Source: Verrucomicrobiota bacterium (GTDB lineage: Bacteria; Verrucomicrobiota; Verrucomicrobiia; Opitutales; Opitutaceae). Taken from it: DNA of 33,295 bases. Position 1 is the first letter of the stretch. Every line of letters starts with the position of its first letter. A model generated the notes under the pieces. That model worked only from the letters and a program-made list of their open reading frames with translations, did no database searches and was not told the origin of the DNA. Made by a program: the position numbers and the translations under genes. Positions 15,653-28,742 of this stretch are shown here, piece after piece. The DNA is taken from NCBI GenBank assembly GCA_026398135.1, contig JAPLTN010000083.1, positions 1-33,295 of the forward strand, read 5' to 3'.

Positions 15653-16075
15653 TTAACGGTCCACCGTCAGCCCCTCGATCTCGGCGGCGTCGGCGAGGCG
15701 GGTGTCGGCGGAGAGGAAGGAAAGGCCGGGAAGCCCGGCTTGGGCGAGAGTGAGCGCGGCGGCGAGTTGCCGGGCGTCGGCGGAGCGCAGCGGGTGGGTG
15801 CGGAGAAGCCGAATCGCGAGCGTGCGCACGGCGGCGGTGGGGGCCACCTCGTGCCAGGCGGCGGCGAGGGCTGCGAGGCGCTCGCGGGCTTGGCGTGCGC
15901 CGGTCGCATCGAGCGCGCCCTCGCGCAGGCGGAGTTGCAGGGCGGACTCACACTCAATGGCCGTGCCCCACCAGACGGCGAGCGCGGAATCAGCCTGGAG
16001 CGCGACGGCGCGGCGCGCGGTGTCGCGCTCGGTGACGAGCAAGGGAACCAGGGCGGAGCTGTCCCAGAATTTCAC
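15653..16075 (-). CDS. VapC-type PIN-domain toxin
   Basis: A 140-residue PIN-domain ribonuclease. The acidic positions expected for metal binding are visible: D5 in FWDSSALV, E43 (or E41) in AIECES, D100 in RSADARQ, and D124 in SADTRL. VapC toxins cleave RNA, often tRNA or rRNA, and are held inactive by the partner antitoxin. The gene overlaps the antitoxin stop by four bases (ATGA), the usual arrangement. It is inserted between the second sulfate permease set and the PHP gene on the same strand. Confidence 0.9.
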   Translation of the reverse strand: MKFWDSSALVPLLVTERDTARRAVALQADSALAVWWGTAIECESALQLRLREGALDATGARQARERLAALAAAWHEVAPTAAVRTLAIRLLRTHPLRSADARQLAAALTLAQAGLPGLSFLSADTRLADAAEIEGLTVDR

Positions 16076-16377
16076 CGCCCCTCCTCCCGCTCGGCGAGGA
16101 TGGCGGCGGAGAGGGCATGGCCTTCCGGCAAGGTGGCCTCGGGCAAAGCGAGGAACGCGGCGACATCGAGGCCCGCAGAGGCGGGCGGCGTGAGCACACC
16201 GGCTTCGTAGAGGGCGGCGAGACCGGGTGAAGGCGCGTCTCCTTCTGTGGCGGAGAAGGGCTGAAGCTGGGCGATGGGGTGGTTGCGCTCGGTGATGATC
16301 ACCCGTTCACCGCGCTTAACCCGCCGGAGGAGGCGGGAGAGCTCGTTTTTAGCGGTAGCTACATTGGCGGTTAACAT
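16072..16377 (-). CDS. Phd/YefM-type antitoxin (VapB partner)
   Basis: A 101-residue antitoxin. The N-terminal NVATAKNELSRLLRRVKRGE and IITERNHPIAQL segments are the Phd/YefM fold that binds DNA and dimerises; the C-terminal part, rich in Ala and Leu, should wrap the toxin. It is paired with the PIN toxin by a four-base overlap. An inverted repeat immediately upstream of the start codon (16379-16393) is a likely autoregulatory operator. Confidence 0.88.
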   Translation of the reverse strand: MLTANVATAKNELSRLLRRVKRGERVIITERNHPIAQLQPFSATEGDAPSPGLAALYEAGVLTPPASAGLDVAAFLALPEATLPEGHALSAAILAEREEGR

Positions 16378-16439: not shown

Positions 16440-17285
16440 CTATGGGGAATCGACACTCTCGCGGCGCTCGACCCAAGTTTTGATCAACAGGGTGACGAGC
16501 GCGAAGGAGGTAAGCACGGAGGCGACCGCAAAGGCGGCGGTCTGCACCTGGTCGTGGTAGAGCAGGTCAATCTGGAGTGTGAGGGTGTTGGTCTCGCCGC
16601 GCACCGCGCCAGAGACCACGGCCACGGAGCCAAACTCGCCGAGGCTGCGGGCGAAGCTAAGGGTAAGCCCGTAAAACAAGGCCCACTTTACGTTGGGCAG
16701 GGTCACCCGAAAAAACGTTTTCCAAGCGCCCGCGCCCAGGCTCACCGCCGCCTGCTCCTCCTGCGTGCCCTGCGCGAGCATGAGCGGGAGCAACTCGCGA
16801 AAAACGTAAGGGCTGGTCACGATGGTGGTCACGATCACCACCGAAGTGACGTTGAAGGCCATGCTGATTCCGTGGTCGTCGAGCCACGGCCCGAGCACGC
16901 CCTGCAGGCCGAAAACAAACAGGTAACCCACGCCGATGATGATGGGCGAAATCGAGAGCGGCAGCTCAATCAGGCTGATGAGCAGCCGCCGGCCGGGAAA
17001 GGTGAACTTCGCCAAGGCCCACGCGGCGCACAGCCCGAAGACGGTGTTGACCGGGAGCGCGACCCCGGCGGCGAGCAAGGAAAGTCCGATGGCGTGCCGC
17101 GTATCCGGCGCGAGGAGGTAGCCGAAATAGGCGGCCCAGCCCTCGCGCAGGGCGTAGTAAAACACCGCCCCAAGCGGCAGGCTTATCAAGAGGCCGACCG
17201 CACCCGCCCCGGTCAAGACCAGCGCGATGCGGCCGGGATGCCCGCGCAGGCCGGCGCGAGTGGTTTCCGAGACCCGCGCGCTCAA
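16440..17285 (-). CDS. cysW: Sulfate ABC transporter permease CysW, set 1
   Basis: A 281-residue inner-membrane permease with about six transmembrane segments. The EAA loop reads EQAAVSLGAGAWKTFFRVTLPNVKWAL (about residues 178-204), where the ATPase docks, followed by ARSLGEFGSVAVVSG and the RGETNTLTLQIDLLYHD block typical of CysW. The start codon appears to be TTG at 17285, overlapping the cysT stop by four bases; no ATG or GTG fits better. It is preceded by its own cysT and binding-protein genes. No ATPase gene accompanies this set, so it probably shares the cysA at 20470. Confidence 0.92.
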   Translation of the reverse strand: MSARVSETTRAGLRGHPGRIALVLTGAGAVGLLISLPLGAVFYYALREGWAAYFGYLLAPDTRHAIGLSLLAAGVALPVNTVFGLCAAWALAKFTFPGRRLLISLIELPLSISPIIIGVGYLFVFGLQGVLGPWLDDHGISMAFNVTSVVIVTTIVTSPYVFRELLPLMLAQGTQEEQAAVSLGAGAWKTFFRVTLPNVKWALFYGLTLSFARSLGEFGSVAVVSGAVRGETNTLTLQIDLLYHDQVQTAAFAVASVLTSFALVTLLIKTWVERRESVDSP

Positions 17286-18103
17286 CCGTGGAGCCTCCGG
17301 TAAAGCCGGCCCTGCCAGAGGTTCATCGCCACCAGCAAGGTAAGCGCGAAGGCGAGGATCGCGGTGGCCAGCGCGGCCGCGCCCACGTAGTCGAATTCAT
17401 CCATGCGGATATAGATCAACAGGGCGGCGATCTCGGTCTGAAAAGGCAGGTTGCCCGCGATGAAAACCACCGCGCCGAACTCGCCCAGGCTGCGCACCAG
17501 CGCGAGCGTGCCGCCGGCGATGATAGCCGGTCTGAGCTCGGGCAGGATCACACGGCGAAAAGTCGTGAACGGCCCCGCCCCCAGACTGGCGGCGGCTTCC
17601 TCCAGCGCGGGCTCCAGATCGGCGAGCACGGGCTGAACCGTGCGCACCACAAAAGGCAGGCTGGTAAACGTCATGGCCAGCACGATGCCGGGAAAGGCGT
17701 AGGCGATTTTAATCCCAAATCCGGCGAAGAGCGCCCCGACCGGGCCGGCGGGAACCGTAAGGGTGGCCAGGGCGATGCCGGCCACGGCGGTCGGCAGGGC
17801 GAAGGGCAGGTCGATCGCGGCATCCAGCAGGCGGCGTCCGGGAAACTCGTAACGCACCAGAATCCACGCGGTCAGCACACCGAGGACGAGGTTGAGAAAG
17901 GTCGCAGCGCCGGCCGCCAGCAGGGTGACGCGGTAGGCGGCCAGCGCGCGCGAATCGCTGATGTAGCCCCAAAACTCGGCCCAGGTCAGACCGGCAGACT
18001 TCAGCACGAGCGCGCCCAGCGGCAGCAGCGTGGCCAGCGCAAGGAAGACCACGGTGGTGCCGAGCGAGAGGCCGAAACCGGGGATGACGCGGGGGCGGGA
18101 CAC
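17282..18103 (-). CDS. cysT: Sulfate ABC transporter permease CysT, set 1
   Basis: A 273-residue permease with about six membrane segments. It carries [13 protein letters not shown] at the N-terminus, the [18 protein letters not shown] segment and the EEAAASLGAGPFTTFRRVILP EAA loop, all typical of CysT/CysU. It pairs with CysW to form the membrane channel for sulfate or thiosulfate. The start is a GTG at 18103; the gap to the upstream binding-protein gene is 38 bases and holds a hairpin (18112-18133). Confidence 0.92.
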   Translation of the reverse strand: MSRPRVIPGFGLSLGTTVVFLALATLLPLGALVLKSAGLTWAEFWGYISDSRALAAYRVTLLAAGAATFLNLVLGVLTAWILVRYEFPGRRLLDAAIDLPFALPTAVAGIALATLTVPAGPVGALFAGFGIKIAYAFPGIVLAMTFTSLPFVVRTVQPVLADLEPALEEAAASLGAGPFTTFRRVILPELRPAIIAGGTLALVRSLGEFGAVVFIAGNLPFQTEIAALLIYIRMDEFDYVGAAALATAILAFALTLLVAMNLWQGRLYRRLHG

Positions 18104-18141: not shown

Positions 18142-19149
18142 TTAGTTGATGCGCTCGGCGGCGACTTCCTTAAGCAGGGTGTCCACGAGGGCGCCGTTGT
18201 CGAAAAACTGCTTGGTCACCTTTTCCCAACCACCGAAGAAAGCATCGACTTCGACCGTCTTTACCGGGGTCAGCTTGGCGGCATAACGGGCGGCGACCCC
18301 GGCGTCGCGGGGGCGGTAGTGGTTTTTCGCGACGATTTCCTGTCCCTGGGGGGTGTAGAGAAAGTCGAGATACGCCTTGGCCACGGCGGCGGTGCCGCGT
18401 TTGGCGGCGACTTTTTCCACCACCGCCACCGGGAACTCGGCCAGCACGCTGACCGACGGAGTAATGACCTGGTAGGCGGAGCCGGGCGCGGAAGCCAGGG
18501 CAAGGGTCTCGGCCTCGAAAGTGACCAGCACGTCGCCGATCTCGCGCTCGGTGAAGGTCGAGGTGGCGGTGCGGCCGCCGGATTCGAAGACGACGACGTT
18601 GGCCAGGATCTTCTTGGTCAGGGCGCGCGCCTGGGCGGCGTCGTTGTTAAAGGCCTGAAGCCCGGCGGCGTAGTAGGCGAGTACGGCGTAGCGGCCGTTG
18701 CCGCCGGTCTTGGGGTTGACCTGCACGATGGTCACGCCCGCCTTGGCCAGATCGGCCCAGTCCTTGATGCCCTTGGGGTTGCCCTTGCGCACCAGGATGG
18801 AATGAACGCTGAAATAAGGAGAGCTGCCGTGGGGGAAACGCGCGGCCCAGTCCTTGGCGACGAACTTGTTGTCGGCAAGGAGCTGCACGTCGTTGACCTG
18901 ATTGAAGGTGACGACGTCGGCCTTGAGTCCTTCGAGGATGGCGCGGGCCTGGCGGGACGAGCCGCCGTGCGATTGCTTGATGGTCAATTCGCCGCCGCCG
19001 GAAGCCTTGTAGGCGGGAATGAACGCGGCGTTCACCTCGGCGAAAAGTTCGCGCGAAATGTCGTAGGAGGCGTTAAGGATTTCGGTCTGCGCGGAGGCGA
19101 CGGTGGCGGCAAGGCCGAGAATGGAGAGAAGAAGTGGGAAACGTTTCAT
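18142..19149 (-). CDS. Sulfate-type ABC binding protein, set 1 (atypical site)
   Basis: A 335-residue periplasmic binding protein of the Sbp/CysP family, with a signal peptide at about 1-20 (ends ASAQ). Family landmarks are ILNASYDISRELF, KQSHGGSSRQARAI (58-71), [13 protein letters not shown] and EREIGDVLVTFEAE. Compared with the second binding protein in this window, two classical sulfate contacts of Salmonella Sbp are changed: the NPKTSGG serine is Gly149, and the binding-site tryptophan is Phe211. The VVTFNQVNDVQ loop also differs. It may prefer thiosulfate or another oxyanion. I chose the ATG at 19149 because it directly precedes the signal peptide. A tRNA-Cys gene lies 99 bases upstream. 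Confidence 0.9.
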   Translation of the reverse strand: MKRFPLLLSILGLAATVASAQTEILNASYDISRELFAEVNAAFIPAYKASGGGELTIKQSHGGSSRQARAILEGLKADVVTFNQVNDVQLLADNKFVAKDWAARFPHGSSPYFSVHSILVRKGNPKGIKDWADLAKAGVTIVQVNPKTGGNGRYAVLAYYAAGLQAFNNDAAQARALTKKILANVVVFESGGRTATSTFTEREIGDVLVTFEAETLALASAPGSAYQVITPSVSVLAEFPVAVVEKVAAKRGTAAVAKAYLDFLYTPQGQEIVAKNHYRPRDAGVAARYAAKLTPVKTVEVDAFFGGWEKVTKQFFDNGALVDTLLKEVAAERIN

Positions 19150-19248
19150 GGCTGCTAAGTGGAAGGAATCCGTGCCTCCGGAGTGTACCCGGTGGGAAAT
19201 GGATCGGACTGATACTTGGCCATGAAGAGGACTTCTCTGGCTGAAATT

Positions 19249-19323
19249 TGGAGGCGGGGGTTGGAGTCGAACCAACTCATGAGGCGATTGCGGCGCCTGG
19301 CCTTCCCACTTGGCTACCCCGCC
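19249..19323 (-). tRNA. tRNA-Cys (GCA) with C33, CCA encoded
   Basis: A full cloverleaf on the minus strand: acceptor GGCGGGG/CCCCGCC, TA at 8-9, D-arm GCC/GGC with GG in the loop, anticodon stem AGGCG/CGCCT, five-base variable loop, T-stem GTTGG/CCAAC with loop TTCGACT, discriminator U73 and an encoded CCA. The anticodon is GCA, and U73 plus GCA are the main determinants for cysteinyl-tRNA synthetase. The anticodon loop is CCGCAAT, so position 33 is C rather than the nearly invariant U, and 38 is U. G15 faces A48. The gene sits between cysK and a sulfate-binding-protein gene, in the same orientation. It may be a specialised or decaying extra copy; the genome's ordinary tRNA-Cys is not in this window. 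Confidence 0.9.
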
Positions 19324-19340
19324 GAAAAGATTCGGAAACT

Positions 19341-19368
19341 TATTTAACGCTAAGGCGCAAAGACGCAA
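19341..19368 (-). promoter_or_regulatory. Possible promoter for tRNA-Cys/sbp
   Basis: On the minus strand, TTGCGT and TAAATA are separated by 16 bases and end about 18 bases before the tRNA 5' end. The -35-like box lies inside the dispersed repeat at 19344-19424. This is a fit by eye only. Confidence 0.35.
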
Positions 19369-19424
19369 AGGGCGCAAAGACTAATCAAAGAAGGTTTCTC
19401 CGCGCCTCTGCGACTTTGCGTTAA
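19344..19424. repeat. Dispersed GCGCAAAG-type repeat with inverted ends
   Basis: TTAACGC at 19344-19350 and GCGTTAA at 19418-19424 bound a segment with three imperfect direct units of GCGCAAAG/ACGCAAAG and a facing CTTTGCG. This resembles the small AACGCAAAGACGCAAAG repeats I recall from many bacterial genomes. It fills the cysK-to-tRNA gap and can fold into an imperfect hairpin. Confidence 0.55.
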
Positions 19425-19444
19425 AAATCTGAATCCGGCTGGCC

Positions 19445-20422
19445 TCAGGCCTGGGTGTAGAAGTCGGAGATGTCGTCCGACTCGGCGCTCACGTCGGCGA
19501 AGAGCCAGGTCGAGAGGTAGCGTTCGCTGGAGGACGGAATGATCGCGACGATGGTCTTGCCCGCGTTTTCCGGGCGCTTGGAGAGCTGGATCGCCGCCCA
19601 GGTGATCGCGCCGGAGCTGATGCCGATGGGCACGCCGTCGAGGGTGTTGACCTGTTTGGAGACGGGGCCGGAGTCGGCCTCGGCCACCTGGATGATCTCG
19701 TCGATCACACCCTTGTTGAGCACGGCGGGCACGAAACCGGCGCCGATGCCTTGCAGCTTGTGCGGGCCGGGCTGGCCGCCGGAGAGCACGGGCGACCCGG
19801 CGGGCTCGACCGCGACGATCTTCACGCCGGGCTTCTTCTGTTTCAGCACTTCGCCGACACCGGTGATGGTGCCGCCGGTGCCGACGCCGGCCACGACGAT
19901 ATCCACCGCGCCGTCGGTATCGCGCCAGATTTCCTCGGCGGTGGTGCGGCGGTGCACGGCGGGGTTATCGGGATTGGCGAACTGCTGGAGAATCACGCTG
20001 CCGGGGATCTTGGCCTGGAGCTCCTCGGCGCGGGCGATCGCGCCCTTCATGCCCTTGGTGCCTTCGGTCAGGACGAGCTTGGCACCGAGGATTTTCAGGA
20101 GCTTGCGACGCTCAAGACTCATGGTCTCGGGCATGGTGAGGATGAGTTTCAGGCCCTTGGCGGCGGCCACGAAGGCGAGGGCGATACCGGTGTTGCCCGA
20201 GGTGGGCTCGATGAGGACGGTCGAAGGCGTGATGCGACCGGATTTGAGCGCCTCGTCGATCATGGCGAAGCCGATGCGATCCTTCACGCTGGAGAGCGGG
20301 TTGAAGAACTCCAGTTTGAGCAGGATGGTGGCTTGGGCGCCATGGGCGGCGGCGGTGCGGTTGAGGCGGACCAAGGGGGTGTTGCCGATGGTCTCGGTGA
20401 TGTCGTTATAGATGCGGGACAT
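19445..20422 (-). CDS. cysK: Cysteine synthase A
   Basis: A 325-residue PLP enzyme of normal CysK length that makes cysteine from O-acetylserine and sulfide. It shows [10 protein letters not shown] (12-21), the PLP lysine K47 in SSVKDR, the substrate loop TSGNTG (74-79), and the phosphate loop GTGGTITG. The C-terminus lacks CBS domains, so it is CysK rather than cystathionine beta-synthase. It follows cysA by 47 bases and is probably cotranscribed. No serine acetyltransferase gene is in the window. CACC directly precedes the ATG, with no Shine-Dalgarno. Confidence 0.96.
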
Positions 20423-20469
20423 GGTGGGTGGGGGGAAATTTGGGCGGGGAGCGTGGAGGTGGGAGCGGT

Positions 20470-21558
20470 CTAGATGTCCCGGCCGGCGTCCACCACGGCG
20501 GGGGTGGCGTCGTCGGCGGCGACATCACGTTCGACGAAGGCTCCGGCGGGAAACAGGCGGATGTGGCGGAAAACCACGTGCGCCTCGTCGCCGGCGGCGA
20601 GGCCGAGCTCCTTCAAGCGCACACGGGAAAGCTCGGCGTCGATGGTGTCGCCGTTGTCGAGGCGCACGAGGGCGACGCGGCCGTAGTTGCCGGCCGAGAA
20701 GACGTGCTGCACCCGCACGCGTACGCCGTGTTCGCCTTCGTAATGGCGCTGGATGTCCACATCGTGCGGGCGCACATAGATCACGTCGGGACCCGCCCCG
20801 GGGAGCGGGTGGCCGAGGGCGGCGAAGCGGTTCACGTTGCCCAGAAACTCGATCACAAAGGGCGAGGCGGGTTGGTCGTAAACCTCCTGGGGAGTGCCGA
20901 CCTGCTCGATCTTGGCGTTGTTCATGACCACGACCTGGTCGGCCAGCTCCAGAGCCTCCTCCTGGTCGTGGGTCACGAAGACGGTGGTGATGCCGATCTC
21001 GCGCTGGAACTGGCGCAGCCAGCGGCGGAGGTCCTTGCGCACGCGGGCGTCGAGCGCGCCGAACGGCTCGTCGAGCAGGAGGACCTTGGGCTGCACGGCG
21101 AGGGCGCGGGCGAGGGCGACGCGCTGGCGCTGGCCGCCGGAGAGCTGGGTGGGGTAACGCGCGCCGAGGTCGTCGAGCTGGATGAGCTTAAGCAGCTCCT
21201 TGACGCGGGCCTGAATCTGCTCTGCGGACTGGCGTTCGCGGCGGGGCTGGACGGTGAGGCCGAAGGCGATGTTTTGCGCCACCGTCATGTGGCGGAAGAG
21301 CGCGTAGTGCTGGAAAACGAAGCCGACGCCGCGCTTGCCGGCGGGGATGTCGGTCACGTCGGTGCCGTGGAAGTCGATGCGACCGCTGCCGGGGTCGGAA
21401 AACTCCAGCCCGGCGATGATGCGCAGCAGGGTGGTTTTACCCGAGCCGGAAGGCCCGAGCAGGGCCACCAGCTTGCCCTCGGGCACGTCGAGACTGACGT
21501 CGTTAAGCGCGGTGTAAGCGCCGAAGGTTTTGGTGATGTTGCGGGCGATGATGCTCAT
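20470..21558 (-). CDS. cysA: Sulfate ABC transporter ATPase CysA
   Basis: A 362-residue ATPase. Walker A is GPSGSGKT (35-42), the Q-loop lies in FVFQHYALF, the signature LSGGQ is at 139-143, Walker B is LLLDEP (160-165), and the switch histidine is in VTHDQEEAL. The C-terminal third, beginning with [10 protein letters not shown], is a TOBE-like regulatory domain as in CysA. I chose the ATG at 21558 because the conserved [11 protein letters not shown] follows; the extension to 21630 is unlike the family. It is the only sulfate-type ATPase gene in the window and may serve both permease pairs. Confidence 0.95.
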
Positions 21559-21602: not shown

Positions 21603-22517
21603 TCAGGCGGTGCGGCGGGCGTGGGCCCACTCGACCAGGGACTTGAGGACGAGGGTGACGAGGGCGAGCAGGGCAAGCACGGAGGCGGCGGCGAAGGCTC
21701 CTACGAACTGGTATTCGTTGTAGAGAATCTCCACGTGCAGCGGCAGGGTGTTGGTCTCGCCGCGAATGTGGCCGGAGACGACGGACACGGCCCCGAATTC
21801 ACCCATGGCGCGGGCGTTGCAAAGGATGACGCCGTAGAAGAGACCCCACTTGATGTTGGGCAGGGTGACGTTCCAGAAAGTCTGCCAGCCGTTCGCGCCG
21901 AGCGTGATGGCGGCGTATTCCTCGTCGTTGCCCTGCTGCTGCATGAGCGGGATGAGCTCGCGGGCGACAAACGGAAAAGTGACGAAGACAGTGGCCAGCA
22001 CGATGCCGGGGACGGCGAAGATGATCTTGAAATCCTGTTCGATCAGCCAGGCCTGCAAAGCGGGAAACCAAGGTGCCTCGGCGTTGAGATACTGCCCATA
22101 CCAACCCTGTGCGCCGAAGATCAGCACATAGATCAGACCCGAGATCACCGGGGAAACGGCGAAGGGCAGGTCGATGAGGGTTATAAGCACGCTCTTGCCC
22201 GGGAAAGTGAACTTGGCGATGCACCACGCCGCCGCGACGCCGAAGACGAGATTGGCCGGAACGGCGAGCGCAGCAGTGATCAGGGTGAGCTTGAGCGCGT
22301 GCAGCCCGTCGGGGTCCTTAAGCGCGGTAATATAAGCGCCCAGACCGCGCCGCAACGCCTCGGCAAATACCGCGACCAAGGGTAACAGTAGAAACAAAGC
22401 GAGAAAGCCCAACGCAACTGCCGTGAGAGTGTAACGAACCCAGGTCGCATCGCGCGTGGCCAGCGGACGCACGGCGGAACCGGAGCTGCGGGAGAGAGAG
22501 GAAACGGCGGAGGCCAT
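21603..22517 (-). CDS. cysW: Sulfate ABC transporter permease CysW, set 2
   Basis: A 304-residue permease with about six membrane segments. The EAA-loop region reads [27 protein letters not shown], followed by [15 protein letters not shown] and [18 protein letters not shown], all CysW landmarks. The N-terminal 30 residues are a serine-rich cytoplasmic tail. It follows cysT by 25 bases and precedes cysA by 44, a standard sbp-cysTWA order apart from the M14-like pair inserted upstream. Confidence 0.95.
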
Positions 22518-22542: not shown

Positions 22543-23433
22543 TTAAACGGCGTGGTGGCGGCGGCTCCATTTTTGGAGCAGGTTGATGATCAAGAGCAGG
22601 GTGAACGAAGCCACGAGCATGACGACCGCGATGGCGGTGGCTCCGGCGTAGTCGTATTGCTCAAGCTTGGTAATGATGAGCAGCGGGGTGATCTCGGTGC
22701 GCATGGGCATGTTACCCGAGATGAAGACAACGGACCCGTATTCGCCGAGAGCGCGGGCAAAGGCCATGGCGAAACCGGTGATGAGAGCGGGCAAAAGCTG
22801 GGGGAAAATGACCCGCGTAATCGTCTGCCAGCGGTTGGCCCCGAGCGAGGCCGAGGCCTCCTCAAACTCCGGCTCCAGCTCCTCTATGATGGGCTGCAAG
22901 GTGCGGACCACAAAAGGCAGTCCAATGAAGGTGAGGGCTATAAAGATTCCGGGGCGATCAAAGGCCAGCTTGGCCCCGAGTAAACCGACCCAGTCCACGA
23001 AAGGAAAAACATCCGCGAGTTTGTGCACAAAGCTCGACCAAATCGGATCCAGCCAATGCCCAAGCCAGCCGTTGGGCGCGTAGAGCGCGGTGAGCGCGAT
23101 ACCGGCCACGGCGGTGGGCAGCGCGAAGGGCAGATCGACCAAGGCATCGACCACCCGGCGACCGGGAAACGGATAGCGCACCAGCACCCAGGCGACGATC
23201 AAACCGAAAACGCAGTTAAGCGAGGCGGCCGCAAACGAAGCCAGAAAGCTGATGCGGTAAGAAGCCAGCACGCGGGGCGAAAACACCGCGGTTTTGAACT
23301 CTTCCCAGGTCAGCCCCGATGTCTTGATGAACGCGGCGGAAAGCGGCAGCAGGACGATCAGGCTCAGATAGGTGATCGTGAGGCCGAGCGACAATCCGAA
23401 GCCGGGTATGACGGAGCGGTGGGAGCGGGACAT
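22543..23433 (-). CDS. cysT: Sulfate ABC transporter permease CysT, set 2
   Basis: A 296-residue permease starting with [12 protein letters not shown] and containing [19 protein letters not shown], the [28 protein letters not shown] loop and the [23 protein letters not shown] block typical of CysT. I chose the ATG at 23433 over an upstream in-frame codon because homology to the set 1 protein starts there. An extra stretch at about 120-145, relative to the set 1 CysT, lies in a periplasmic loop. Confidence 0.95.
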
Positions 23434-25213: not shown

Positions 25214-26227
25214 TTACTTCTTCAGGTAGATTTGATCGAAGAAGCCGCCGTCGGCGAAGTGGGTCTTCTGCGCCTTTTGCCAGCCGCCGAAAACCTCGTC
25301 GATGGTGATGAGCTTCACATTCACGAACTGGCCGGCGAACTTGGCCTTCGCCTCGGGAACGTTGGGACGATAGAAGTTACGGCCCGCGATCTCCTGGCCC
25401 TCGGGCGAGTAAAGGTATTCGAGGTAGGCCTTGGCCACTTCGGTGCTGCCCTTTTTCTTGGCGTTTTTATCCACCACCGTAACCGGGGGCTCGGCCAGAA
25501 TGCTCAGAGAAGGCGTGATGATCTCGAACTTGTCGGCCCCGAATTCCTTGAGGGCGAGGAAGGCCTCGTTTTCCCAGGAGAGGAACACGTCGCCAATGCC
25601 GCGTTGCACGAAGGTCGTAGTGGAGCCGCGCGCACCGGAGTCGAGCACGGGAACATTCTTGTAGAGATCGGCCACGAACTTTTTGGCCGCTTCCTCGCTA
25701 CCCCCGTTTTTTTCCAAGGCGTAGGCCCAGGCCGCCAGATAGTTCCAGCGCGCGCCACCCGAGGTTTTGGGGTTGGGGGTGATGACCGAGACGCCCGGCT
25801 TCACGATATCGCTCCAGTCCTTGATGCCCTTGGGGTTGCCCTTGCGGACCACGAAAACGATGGTCGAGGTGTAAGGCGCGGAGTTGTAAGGCAGGCGTTT
25901 TTGCCAATCGGCAGGGAAGAGCTTAGCCTTCTCCGAAATCTCATCTATATCGTAGGATAGAGCGAGGGTGACGACATCGGCTTGAAGTCCGTCGATGACC
26001 GAGCGGGCCTGCTTGGCGGCCCCGCCGTGGGACTGTTTTACGACAACGTCGTCGCCGGTCTTGGCCTTCCAGTATTTGGCGAAGGCGGCGTTGTATTCGA
26101 CGTAGAGCTCGCGGGTCGGATCGTAGGAGACGTTGAGCAGTTCGACCGACTTGGCGAAGGCCGAGCCGGTGAGAGCCAGCGCCAGCACGGAGGCGGCGAG
26201 GCGGGTGAGAATGCGGGAGGATTTCAT
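25214..26227 (-). CDS. sbp: Sulfate-binding protein, set 2
   Basis: A 337-residue periplasmic binding protein with a signal peptide at about 1-25 (ends SAFA). Classical sulfate-site elements are kept: [12 protein letters not shown] (64-75), S156-G157-G158 in NPKTSGG, the [10 protein letters not shown] segment, and W218 in [10 protein letters not shown], matching the serine, glycine and tryptophan contacts known in Salmonella Sbp. It is therefore probably a true sulfate binder. It follows the porin gene by 18 bases, implying one transcript from outer-membrane entry to periplasmic capture. Confidence 0.95.
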
Positions 26228-28067: not shown

Positions 28068-28658
28068 TCAAATGGCGTATTCGGGCAGGAGTTCGGAAAT
28101 CAGTCCCTCGACTGGCGCCAAACGGCGCGAATTCGAGGTGGAGCGGCGGCTGACCGCCACGCGTTTTACGCGCACGCCGGGTTTGGGCCGGGCGGCGGCA
28201 AAGGGCAGCGGGAGCGAGTCGCGACGCAGCTTGCGGAGGGTAACCTCCACAACATCGGCGAGGTTGTAGCGGTCCAGGATGCCCGTGATGGCGTTGCGCA
28301 CATCGAGCATGAGCATCCGCAGACCGCAGTGCTCCTCGTCGGGGCAACTACACTTTTCGTAGGCGGTGTGGCTCACGCAACCGATGGGAGCGAGCGGACC
28401 ATCCACAAAACGCACCACCGCGCCGATGGTGATTTCAGCGGCAGGCCGGGCCAGCCGGTAACCGCCGAACTTGCCGCGCTGCGCGATCACGAAACCCGCC
28501 GCCTTCAGCTCCTGCATGATCTGCTCCAAAAATTTGGCGGGGATCAGTTCCTTGTCCGCCAATTCGGTGACCTGCACCAACTCGCGACCCACCTCGCGGG
28601 CAATGCCGAGGTCGATCAGAGCGCGGAGGGCGTATTCACCTTTTTTGGAAAGCTTCAT
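28068..28658 (-). CDS. Rrf2-family regulator with cysteine cluster
   Basis: A 196-residue Rrf2-type winged-helix regulator. MKLSKKGEYALRAL starts the domain, followed by helix-turn-helix residues and the RGKFGGYRLAR wing (61-71). Cysteines at 94, 103, 105 and 111 sit where IscR/NsrR-type members hold an iron-sulfur cluster; CymR, the cysteine regulator of Firmicutes, lacks them. A basic tail of about 50 residues is longer than usual. It is the first gene of the sulfur string and so likely controls it. A perfect nine-base palindrome lies two bases before the ATG. The frame is open to 28688 through the palindrome, but family members begin MKLS or similar. Confidence 0.92.
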   Translation of the reverse strand: MKLSKKGEYALRALIDLGIAREVGRELVQVTELADKELIPAKFLEQIMQELKAAGFVIAQRGKFGGYRLARPAAEITIGAVVRFVDGPLAPIGCVSHTAYEKCSCPDEEHCGLRMLMLDVRNAITGILDRYNLADVVEVTLRKLRRDSLPLPFAAARPKPGVRVKRVAVSRRSTSNSRRLAPVEGLISELLPEYAI

Positions 28659-28660
28659 GA

Positions 28661-28679
28661 GTGTGGATTTAATCCACAC
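28661..28679 (-). promoter_or_regulatory. Palindrome at Rrf2 start codon
   Basis: GTGTGGATT and AATCCACAC arms around one base, occupying the ribosome-binding position of the Rrf2 gene. It may be an operator for autorepression or an RNA hairpin hiding the start. Its sequence differs from the ACT-AGT type sites at 2728 and 11331. Confidence 0.55.
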
Positions 28680-28742
28680 CAAAAGCACTGGGTTTAAATC
28701 TGCAAGCTCTTTTTCCTACTATTCAGATAGGGTTTAGGGTAA

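Follow-up and report, generated by a model that had tools for sequence, protein, structure and literature searches.

Few bases of tRNAs are as constant as U33. The locus described here raises the question of why a tRNA-Cys gene that carries C33 instead should stand within a string of sulfate-uptake and cysteine-synthesis genes, and whether it is kept there for a use of its own. The window, that is, the whole stretch of DNA that was analysed, comprises 33,295 nucleotides of a contig from an Opitutaceae genome of the Verrucomicrobiota (JAPLTN010000083.1, assembly GCA_026398135.1). The combination hints at a dedicated tRNA for sulfur scarcity. Our preferred reading, to which we assign a rough probability of 0.45 on the basis of sequence comparison, is that the gene may be a selectively kept second tRNA-Cys of an accessory sulfur-acquisition module, a conditional, chargeable and weakened decoder made with the sulfur-uptake transcript. 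The relevant features are as follows:

28068 to 28688, minus strand: Rrf2-family regulator, upstream in the cluster (PF02082, 128 bits; the CymR model gives 79 bits, below its cut-off of 195).
25214 to 26227, minus strand: sulfate-binding protein 1, SBP1 (NF008022, 531 bits; cut-off 288).
22543 to 23430, minus strand: cysT, sulfate permease (TIGR02139, 396 bits; cut-off 246).
21603 to 22517, minus strand: cysW, sulfate permease (TIGR02140, 404 bits; cut-off 329).
20470 to 21558, minus strand: cysA, sulfate ABC transporter ATPase (TIGR00968, 388 bits; cut-off 343).
19445 to 20422, minus strand: cysK, cysteine synthase A, the next gene upstream of the tRNA (TIGR01139, 436 bits; cut-off 351).
19249 to 19323, minus strand: tRNA-Cys(GCA) of the cys-operon type with C33, U38, G15, A48, U73 and an encoded CCA (ARAGORN; RF00005; type seen in 14 of 252 family genomes).
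19292, minus strand: C at tRNA position 33, counted on the sequence (C in 13 of the 15 genes of the set).
19150 to 19248, minus strand: spacer separating the tRNA from SBP2, containing the hairpin GCCA-GA-GAAG-NNNN-CUUC-A-UGGC at 19219 to 19241 (pairing comparison).
18142 to 19149, minus strand: SBP2, a second sulfate/thiosulfate-binding protein, the next gene downstream of the tRNA (TIGR00971, 359 bits; cut-off 155.5).
16440 to 18103, minus strand: second CysT/CysW permease pair, CysT2 at 17282 to 18103 (TIGR02139, 344 bits; cut-off 246) and CysW2 at 16440 to 17285 (CysW model, 317 bits, just below the cut-off of 329).
15653 to 16377, minus strand: PIN-domain (VapC-like) gene and Phd/YefM-type antitoxin gene, directly behind CysW2 (profile typing).

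On the minus strand, the genes follow one another in the order Rrf2 regulator, porin, SBP1, two ORFs (one of them AstE/AspA-like), CysT, CysW, CysA, CysK, tRNA, SBP2, CysT2 and CysW2; beyond CysW2, the PIN/Phd-YefM pair, a DUF3604 protein and a FAD-rhodanese protein are encoded on the same strand. The tRNA gene is separated from cysK by 121 nt and from SBP2 by 99 nt, and the matches to TIGR01139 and TIGR00971 bear out the initial annotation, which had placed it between cysK and a sulfate-type binding-protein gene of the same direction. Between 16440 and 26227, two permease pairs and two binding proteins were found together with a single typed CysA ATPase, and SBP2 was slightly closer to the CysP (thiosulfate) model (NF008106, 350 bits) than to the Sbp model (NF008022, 335 bits). 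CysK, CysA, SBP1, SBP2 and CysT2 contain no cysteine residues; the cluster proteins thus use little cysteine and the tRNA should not be needed for their translation. A search for sigma-70-like promoters found none at 18900 to 20500; this is weak evidence, since such a search does not cover promoters of other types. Considering also that at most about 60 nt lie between cysA and the tRNA in one relative (G005), read-through from the upstream genes appears plausible. In the gap between cysK and the tRNA (19324 to 19444), we observed imperfect inverted repeats of the AACGCAAAG...CTTTGCGTT type, and the same gap in several relatives, read by eye, has a different hairpin, which could mark the end of a message or belong to a repeat element.

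The gene was the single tRNA called in the window by ARAGORN. A cmscan of the whole window with fast filters listed nothing, and the Rfam search of 19100 to 19480 returned an RF00005 match of 51 bits, compared with a gathering score of 29. Read from the sequence, the tRNA has the acceptor stem GGCGGGG/CCCCGCC, the D-stem GCC/GGC, the anticodon arm AGGCG-CCGCAAT-CGCCT (that is, C32, C33, G34, C35, A36, A37 and U38), the variable loop CATGA ending in A48, the T-arm GTTGG-TTCGACT-CCAAC, U73 and an encoded CCA. Thus, the GCA anticodon, U73, encoded CCA, C33, U38 and G15/A48 pair described in the initial annotation were all confirmed on the sequence. Its statement that the tRNA folds perfectly holds for the cloverleaf model and not for the energy of the free RNA (z = -0.64; 53 of 200 shuffles reach an equal or better energy). 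U73 and GCA are tRNA-Cys identity elements, according to the available part of PMC7609411, and both were present here and in all 15 genes of the set described below; the U33 expected for the U-turn, on the other hand, was replaced by C here and in 13 of the 15.

The window genome (99.86% complete, 117 contigs) gave 43 RF00005 matches. At their loci, ARAGORN found 44 distinct tRNA sequences, one of which, a 94-nt call in L002, was taken as spurious; 43 had T33 and one, the window gene, had C33. Neither tRNA-Ile(GAT) nor tRNA-Ala(TGC) was listed by ARAGORN at these loci; both often lie within rRNA operons, which draft assemblies lose. An ordinary U33 tRNA-Cys with the loop CTGCAAA was located on another contig (L029), so that the idea of the window gene as the only tRNA-Cys of its genome was rejected and the comparison with an ordinary tRNA-Cys proposed by the initial annotation could be made. 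Pattern searches identified such an ordinary gene in 11 C33 genomes of the set and found none in the twelfth (G178, a 98% complete assembly). Only one cysteinyl-tRNA synthetase (CysRS) gene of the window genome exceeded the cut-off of the model, and the same enzyme would therefore charge both tRNA-Cys species. A second CysRS as a constant partner was also rejected: two genes over the cut-off were found only in G005 and G117 among 14 genomes, and in none of 11 comparison genomes. These pairs (G005:C1:373242-374618 and 5018920-5020368; G117:C34:9863-11215 and C120:4945-6315) were the only ones among the 25 genomes searched; matches were only partial in G516, G540 and G118 and only weak in G108.

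To define the set, pattern searches were carried out within the family. The last of them (acceptor and D-arm, one mismatch allowed) matched 15 of 252 genomes, and G162, with a 5' tRNA fragment, was dropped from these, as were G199 (likewise a 5' fragment) and G124 (not a tRNA) from the family count. The resulting 15 genes belong to 14 of the 252 genomes and to six genera (G000, G516, G518 and G520; G005; G108, with two genes; G035; G059 and G141; G041, G540, G097, G178 and G117), which is more than a chance occurrence. In G162 (L102 from 9912) and G199 (L106 from about 9785), the 5' part of a tRNA-Cys is followed by unrelated DNA, resembling integration at a tRNA gene. Position 33 was C in 13 genes (12 genomes and five genera) and U in G059 and G141, and this recurrence in 12 genomes rules out a sequencing error as the source of C33. 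The distribution was patchy, also within the genus of the window (4 of 15). An order-wide scan of 372 genomes with a strict pattern gave matches in 12; the four exact ones all came from the family of the window, and no C33 relative was found outside it.

The location was conserved. In tblastn comparison with the window proteins, the nearest upstream match was cysK for 12 of the 15 genes, cysA for two (G516 and G005) and neither for the second G108 copy, with gaps of about 20 to about 380 nt between the upstream gene and the tRNA. Two objections raised in the initial annotation, that the gene might be the only tRNA-Cys of its genome with U33 in its relatives, or that synteny might not be conserved, are thus answered by the ordinary U33 gene, the C33 of the relatives and the cysK or cysA match upstream of 14 of the 15 genes. 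The second G108 copy (L099, 2455 to 2529), also of the C33 operon type, lies between a 2-hydroxyglutaryl-CoA dehydratase-type (HGD-D) gene and a downstream gene for an NMT1-like binding protein; judged by eye, the stretch upstream of it resembles that of the other G108 copy. Downstream, an SBP2 gene was present in nine cases (G000, G516, G005, G041, G097, G178, G540, G117 and G035) and absent in six. A protein search independent of the tRNA detected SBP2 orthologues with more than 65% identity in 10 of the 252 genomes, eight of which had the tRNA in front, including G117, where SBP2 is divided between two contigs; of the two exceptions, G046 had none in front, and in G053 the contig edge is reached after 170 bases. 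With G035, which has 53% identity and was added after the fact, the ratio becomes 9 of 11 (hypergeometric 1e-11, relatedness uncorrected). Homologous sulfate clusters without the tRNA occurred in the five comparison genomes examined, two with cysK (G150 and G015) and three without a cysK match in the stretch (G098, G044 and G151). The tRNA thus belongs to the module as an accessory component.

Such a patchy presence (14 of 252) could also be that of a relaxed duplicate, an extra tRNA-Cys copy drifting in the gene string; C33 would then represent decay, as would the T-loop insertions described below. The ordinary tRNA-Cys found in 11 of 12 C33 genomes is in line with this possibility, and so is the top pair of the anticodon stem, which was broken in 4 of 11 distinct genes. 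However, the conservation of the gene argues against it. In 64 between-genus pairs of the 13 genes without insertion, the mean identity of the tRNA was 0.91 (least 0.87), partly by construction because the genes had been gathered by tRNA patterns, whereas the 75 nt upstream and downstream reached only 0.51 and 0.50, near the level of shuffled 75-mers (0.48). In the same 13 genes (11 distinct), 98.2% of 220 cells were paired and four pairs had changed on both sides; none of 500 shuffles reached this covariation score, although shuffles overstate it since the sequences are related. Even the elbow pair G19:C56 was replaced on both sides in G516 (A19:U56), the outcome to be expected for a tRNA that folds into an L-shape. 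U8, A14, G18, positions 34 to 37, A48, U54, U55, A58, U73 and CCA were invariant in the 13 genes, G15 was present in 12 of them, and position 33 was C in 11 and T in 2; U73, GCA and CCA were invariant in all 15. As judged from these sequences, the kept elbow bases speak for a normal L-shape and, position 33 aside, the 13 insertion-free genes look like working tRNAs. Considering the covariation and the identity relative to the flanks, a pseudogene in the window is unlikely.

The other two genes of the set, G117 and G035, belong to two genera and share a 25-nt T-loop insertion of the same kind at the same site, a hairpin of the sequence GAAATGCYTCGGGCTTYGCCCGGAA. Neither gene was called by ARAGORN. 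The insertion occurred as a single copy in both genomes and was absent from G000 and G097 with up to three mismatches allowed, and a dispersed repeat was therefore rejected. All four stems can be formed in G035, which has a six-pair anticodon stem and another structure as its minimum-energy fold; in G117, the T-stem contains an A-A mismatch. A simple intron is not obvious since removal of the insertion leaves no standard T-loop, and the insertion should spoil the normal elbow. For the relaxed duplicate, the insertion together with the mismatch in G117 is a favorable observation, but an insertion at one site that is common to two genera is not what drift would predict, nor are stems and an elbow pair maintained by two-sided changes, or C33 maintained in 12 genomes of five genera. 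Drift therefore appears improbable to us.

A tRNA-like control element of the operon would accommodate the insertions more easily. Recognized by CysRS and perhaps charged, it could be a cysteine gauge, or it could be a processing point that splits the sulfate/cysK part from the SBP2 message; it would have no decoding to do, and both C33 and insertions in the T-loop would then be tolerated or even favored. Several observations fit such an element, namely the place behind cysK or cysA kept by 14 of the 15 genes, the constancy of U73, GCA and CCA in spite of changes at position 33 and in the T-loop of two genera, the single-copy T-loop hairpin that G035 and G117 have in common at one site, with four formable stems in G035, and the tendency of SBP2 genomes to have the tRNA (8 of 10 orthologues, or 9 of 11 with G035, relatedness again uncorrected). 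On the other hand, six of the 15 genes are not followed by SBP2, and the elbow is kept in 13 genes, once by a paired change, which goes beyond what CysRS alone should demand.

The spacer behind the tRNA is relevant to the same possibility. A hairpin of the kind seen in the window was found in seven of the nine loci with SBP2, with an invariant GAAG/CUUC core, one unpaired A and varying outer pairs. In the seven sequences, 54 of 56 cells were paired and two pairs changed on both sides, which favors a control element; yet the hairpin was absent in G041 and G117, the covariation was modest (7 of 500 shuffles reached the score) and the hairpin may be either an RNA element or a DNA operator. Its core pattern occurred once in the window and at least once in 13 of 100 shuffles. 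In G540, a terminator-like hairpin with a T run, read by eye, lies between the tRNA and SBP2, and cis control there would need attenuation. Moreover, no T-box or other known cis-regulatory RNA matched near the gathering score in Rfam searches of window 19100 to 19480, L212 2380 to 2760 and L105 9800 to 10200; weak matches to Xist, snoRNA, miRNA and cobalamin models near the tRNA were read as chance. We regard a control element as possible, if rather doubtful. A bolder version, in which the tRNA no longer mainly decodes and is a CysRS-recognized, perhaps charged, cysteine gauge or processing switch in the sulfate-uptake transcript, kept off the ribosome by C33 and, in two genera, by the T-loop hairpin, seems unlikely. 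If true, a tRNA would have become a regulatory component of the very pathway that supplies it. For a use outside the ribosome, which the initial annotation had considered beside a cysteine-supply sensor and a second tRNA for stress translation, C33 and the insertions (2 of 15 genes) offer indirect support, and no evident partner enzyme was present among the 16 window genes typed.

We also searched for CCA-encoding C33 tRNA-Cys genes elsewhere. In a collection of 84,980 species, the pattern matched 41 stretches, 32 of which held an ARAGORN tRNA-Cys bearing C33. Six of these 32 belong to the family set (Rariglobus sp., L114; Opitutaceae bacterium C4_MAG_00072, L149; Opitutia bacterium fen_1432, L134 and L136; and two Verrucomicrobia MAGs, L112 and L143), and 35 of the 41 lie outside it. 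From the latter, L120, L126, L128, L130, L135, L137 and L138 were left out because ARAGORN did not identify them as tRNA-Cys, and L147 because its body resembles another tRNA in spite of a tRNA-Cys call, while L113 and L117 were kept though uncalled. The genomes of the remaining 27 were tested for U33 tRNA-Cys: nine also held such a gene by one pattern, and in eight, among them that of Paenibacillus caseinilyticus, which carries two C33 genes, none was found by two patterns, the second looser. It should be noted that these eight include the uncalled L117 and are mostly MAGs that may be incomplete, and that other forms of tRNA-Cys escape both patterns.

Among viral contigs, we found 32 C33 tRNA-Cys stretches (L262 to L293; 30 confirmed by ARAGORN, several with repeated sequences) and at least 120 U33 stretches (75 confirmed among 80 loci listed). 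The viral C33 genes nearly always have the CCGCAA core, in CCGCAAA or CCGCAAC loops and on several distinct bodies; the recurrence of these loops possibly reflects nuclease escape. Some cellular genes are identical to viral ones (L124 and L129 to L268, and L146 to L263) and may therefore be prophage genes. With regard to the window tRNA, an origin from a plasmid or phage was examined by DNA similarity, and blastn gave no match in phage and plasmid collections. As far as these sequences tell, C33 in tRNA-Cys is rare in cells and recurrent in viruses and by itself does not exclude use in translation; the viral recurrence, together with the 8 of 27 genomes in which no U33 gene was found, suggests that C33 does not bar the use of a tRNA.

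The viral genes also raise the possibility of a nuclease-proof isoacceptor, whose C33 loop (CCGCAA) would resist an anticodon-loop ribonuclease that attacks the ordinary CUGCAA loop, so that cysteine decoding would be kept under toxin, phage or oxidative stress. Besides the recurrence of the CCGCAA core in viral contigs (30 of 32 C33 stretches confirmed, compared with at least 120 U33 stretches), two reports agree with this idea: changes in the anticodon loop of phage tRNAs were predicted to allow escape from VapC and other nucleases (available part of PMC10264068), and VapC4 of Mycobacterium tuberculosis targets tRNA-Cys (as cited in the available part of PMC10945364). The PIN/Phd-YefM pair at 15653 to 16377 of the window could be considered in the same light. 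However, this pair was unmatched in 13 other loci searched, some of which do not extend that far, and in G041, G097, G178 and G516 the genes that flank it here stand less than 100 nt apart; a toxin-antitoxin pair as a constant partner was thus rejected. Furthermore, the available text of PMC10264068 contains no mention of position 33, U33, C33 or tRNACys, and the strict tie of the gene to sulfate genes would be left unexplained. Nuclease resistance is, in our opinion, quite improbable as the reason for this gene.

In the preferred reading, that of a conditional second tRNA-Cys, the tRNA would be made when transcription of the sulfate/cysK genes reads through, its amount would consequently follow sulfur limitation, and RNase P and 3' nucleases would excise it from the transcript. 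The single housekeeping CysRS would charge it, as may be expected from the intact U73, GCA and CCA. C33 would make it a slow, detuned decoder of UGC and UGU; changes of U33 are said to degrade translational efficiency in yeast work (available part of PMC3664417). At low sulfur, a dedicated Cys-tRNA pool might then hold or pace the use of cysteine beside the fast ordinary tRNA-Cys. The T-loop insertions in two of the 15 genes, U33 in two others and the patchy presence speak against this conditional isoacceptor, as does the scarcity of cysteine in the cluster proteins.

A C33 isoacceptor that is found across five genera within the supply string of its own amino acid represents a clean natural case for the role of position 33. 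It bears on whether detuned tRNAs are retained by cells for a purpose, and on whether amino-acid supply can be read from charged tRNA in ways other than the known T-box and attenuation systems. Genes that carry a T-loop hairpin sharpen this question, as their products should not fit the normal elbow.

Judged by titles and the beginnings of abstracts, we found no description of a C33 tRNA-Cys in a sulfate/cysK string in the open-licence literature. The initial annotation had considered tRNA genes in biosynthetic strings for their own amino acid to be rare; no cysK case was found in this search, and the claim has to be qualified by the clade VII SepCysS loci, for which tRNA-Cys genes beside sulfur genes have been described (available part of PMC5424206). 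These SepRS/SepCysS operons are the nearest known case, with a tRNA-Cys gene inside a cysteine/sulfur gene group, but they serve RNA-dependent cysteine synthesis, whereas the genes typed around the window tRNA are those of sulfate transport and cysK, with SepRS or SepCysS in 0 of 16. The selC* tRNA-Cys (available part of PMC7609411) is likewise an extra isoacceptor that combines the identity elements of tRNA-Cys with something unusual; it has, however, an 8/4 body and a long variable arm like tRNA-Sec, and the window tRNA has a 7-bp acceptor stem, a 5-bp T-stem (7/5) and a short variable loop of five bases.

Compared with the ordinary tRNA-Cys of its own genome (L029), the window tRNA shares GCA, U73, the encoded CCA, a near-identical D-arm and the cloverleaf, and differs in C33, the GGCGGGG acceptor, a third D-loop G, the five-base variable loop ending in A48 and the sulfate/cysK location. 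The viral C33 tRNA-Cys genes share the CCGCAA loop core, GCA, U73 and CCA, but many occur in stretches with several tRNAs, and they have bodies unlike that of the operon tRNA. Natural replacements of U33 also occur elsewhere, and Candida tRNA-Ser(CAG) has G33. C33 is present in eukaryotic initiator tRNA-Met, according to the available part of PMC9023262. Both resemble the window tRNA in this replacement, but belong to another domain, amino acid and role and have no tie to a biosynthetic gene string. Finally, the inducible tRNA operon of Anabaena under TrcR is a bacterial tRNA set for special conditions (available part of PMC10272220). It is similar in that tRNA genes are expressed only under particular conditions, as the preferred reading would predict here; it comprises 26 genes on a megaplasmid, whereas the window holds one isoacceptor in a biosynthetic string.
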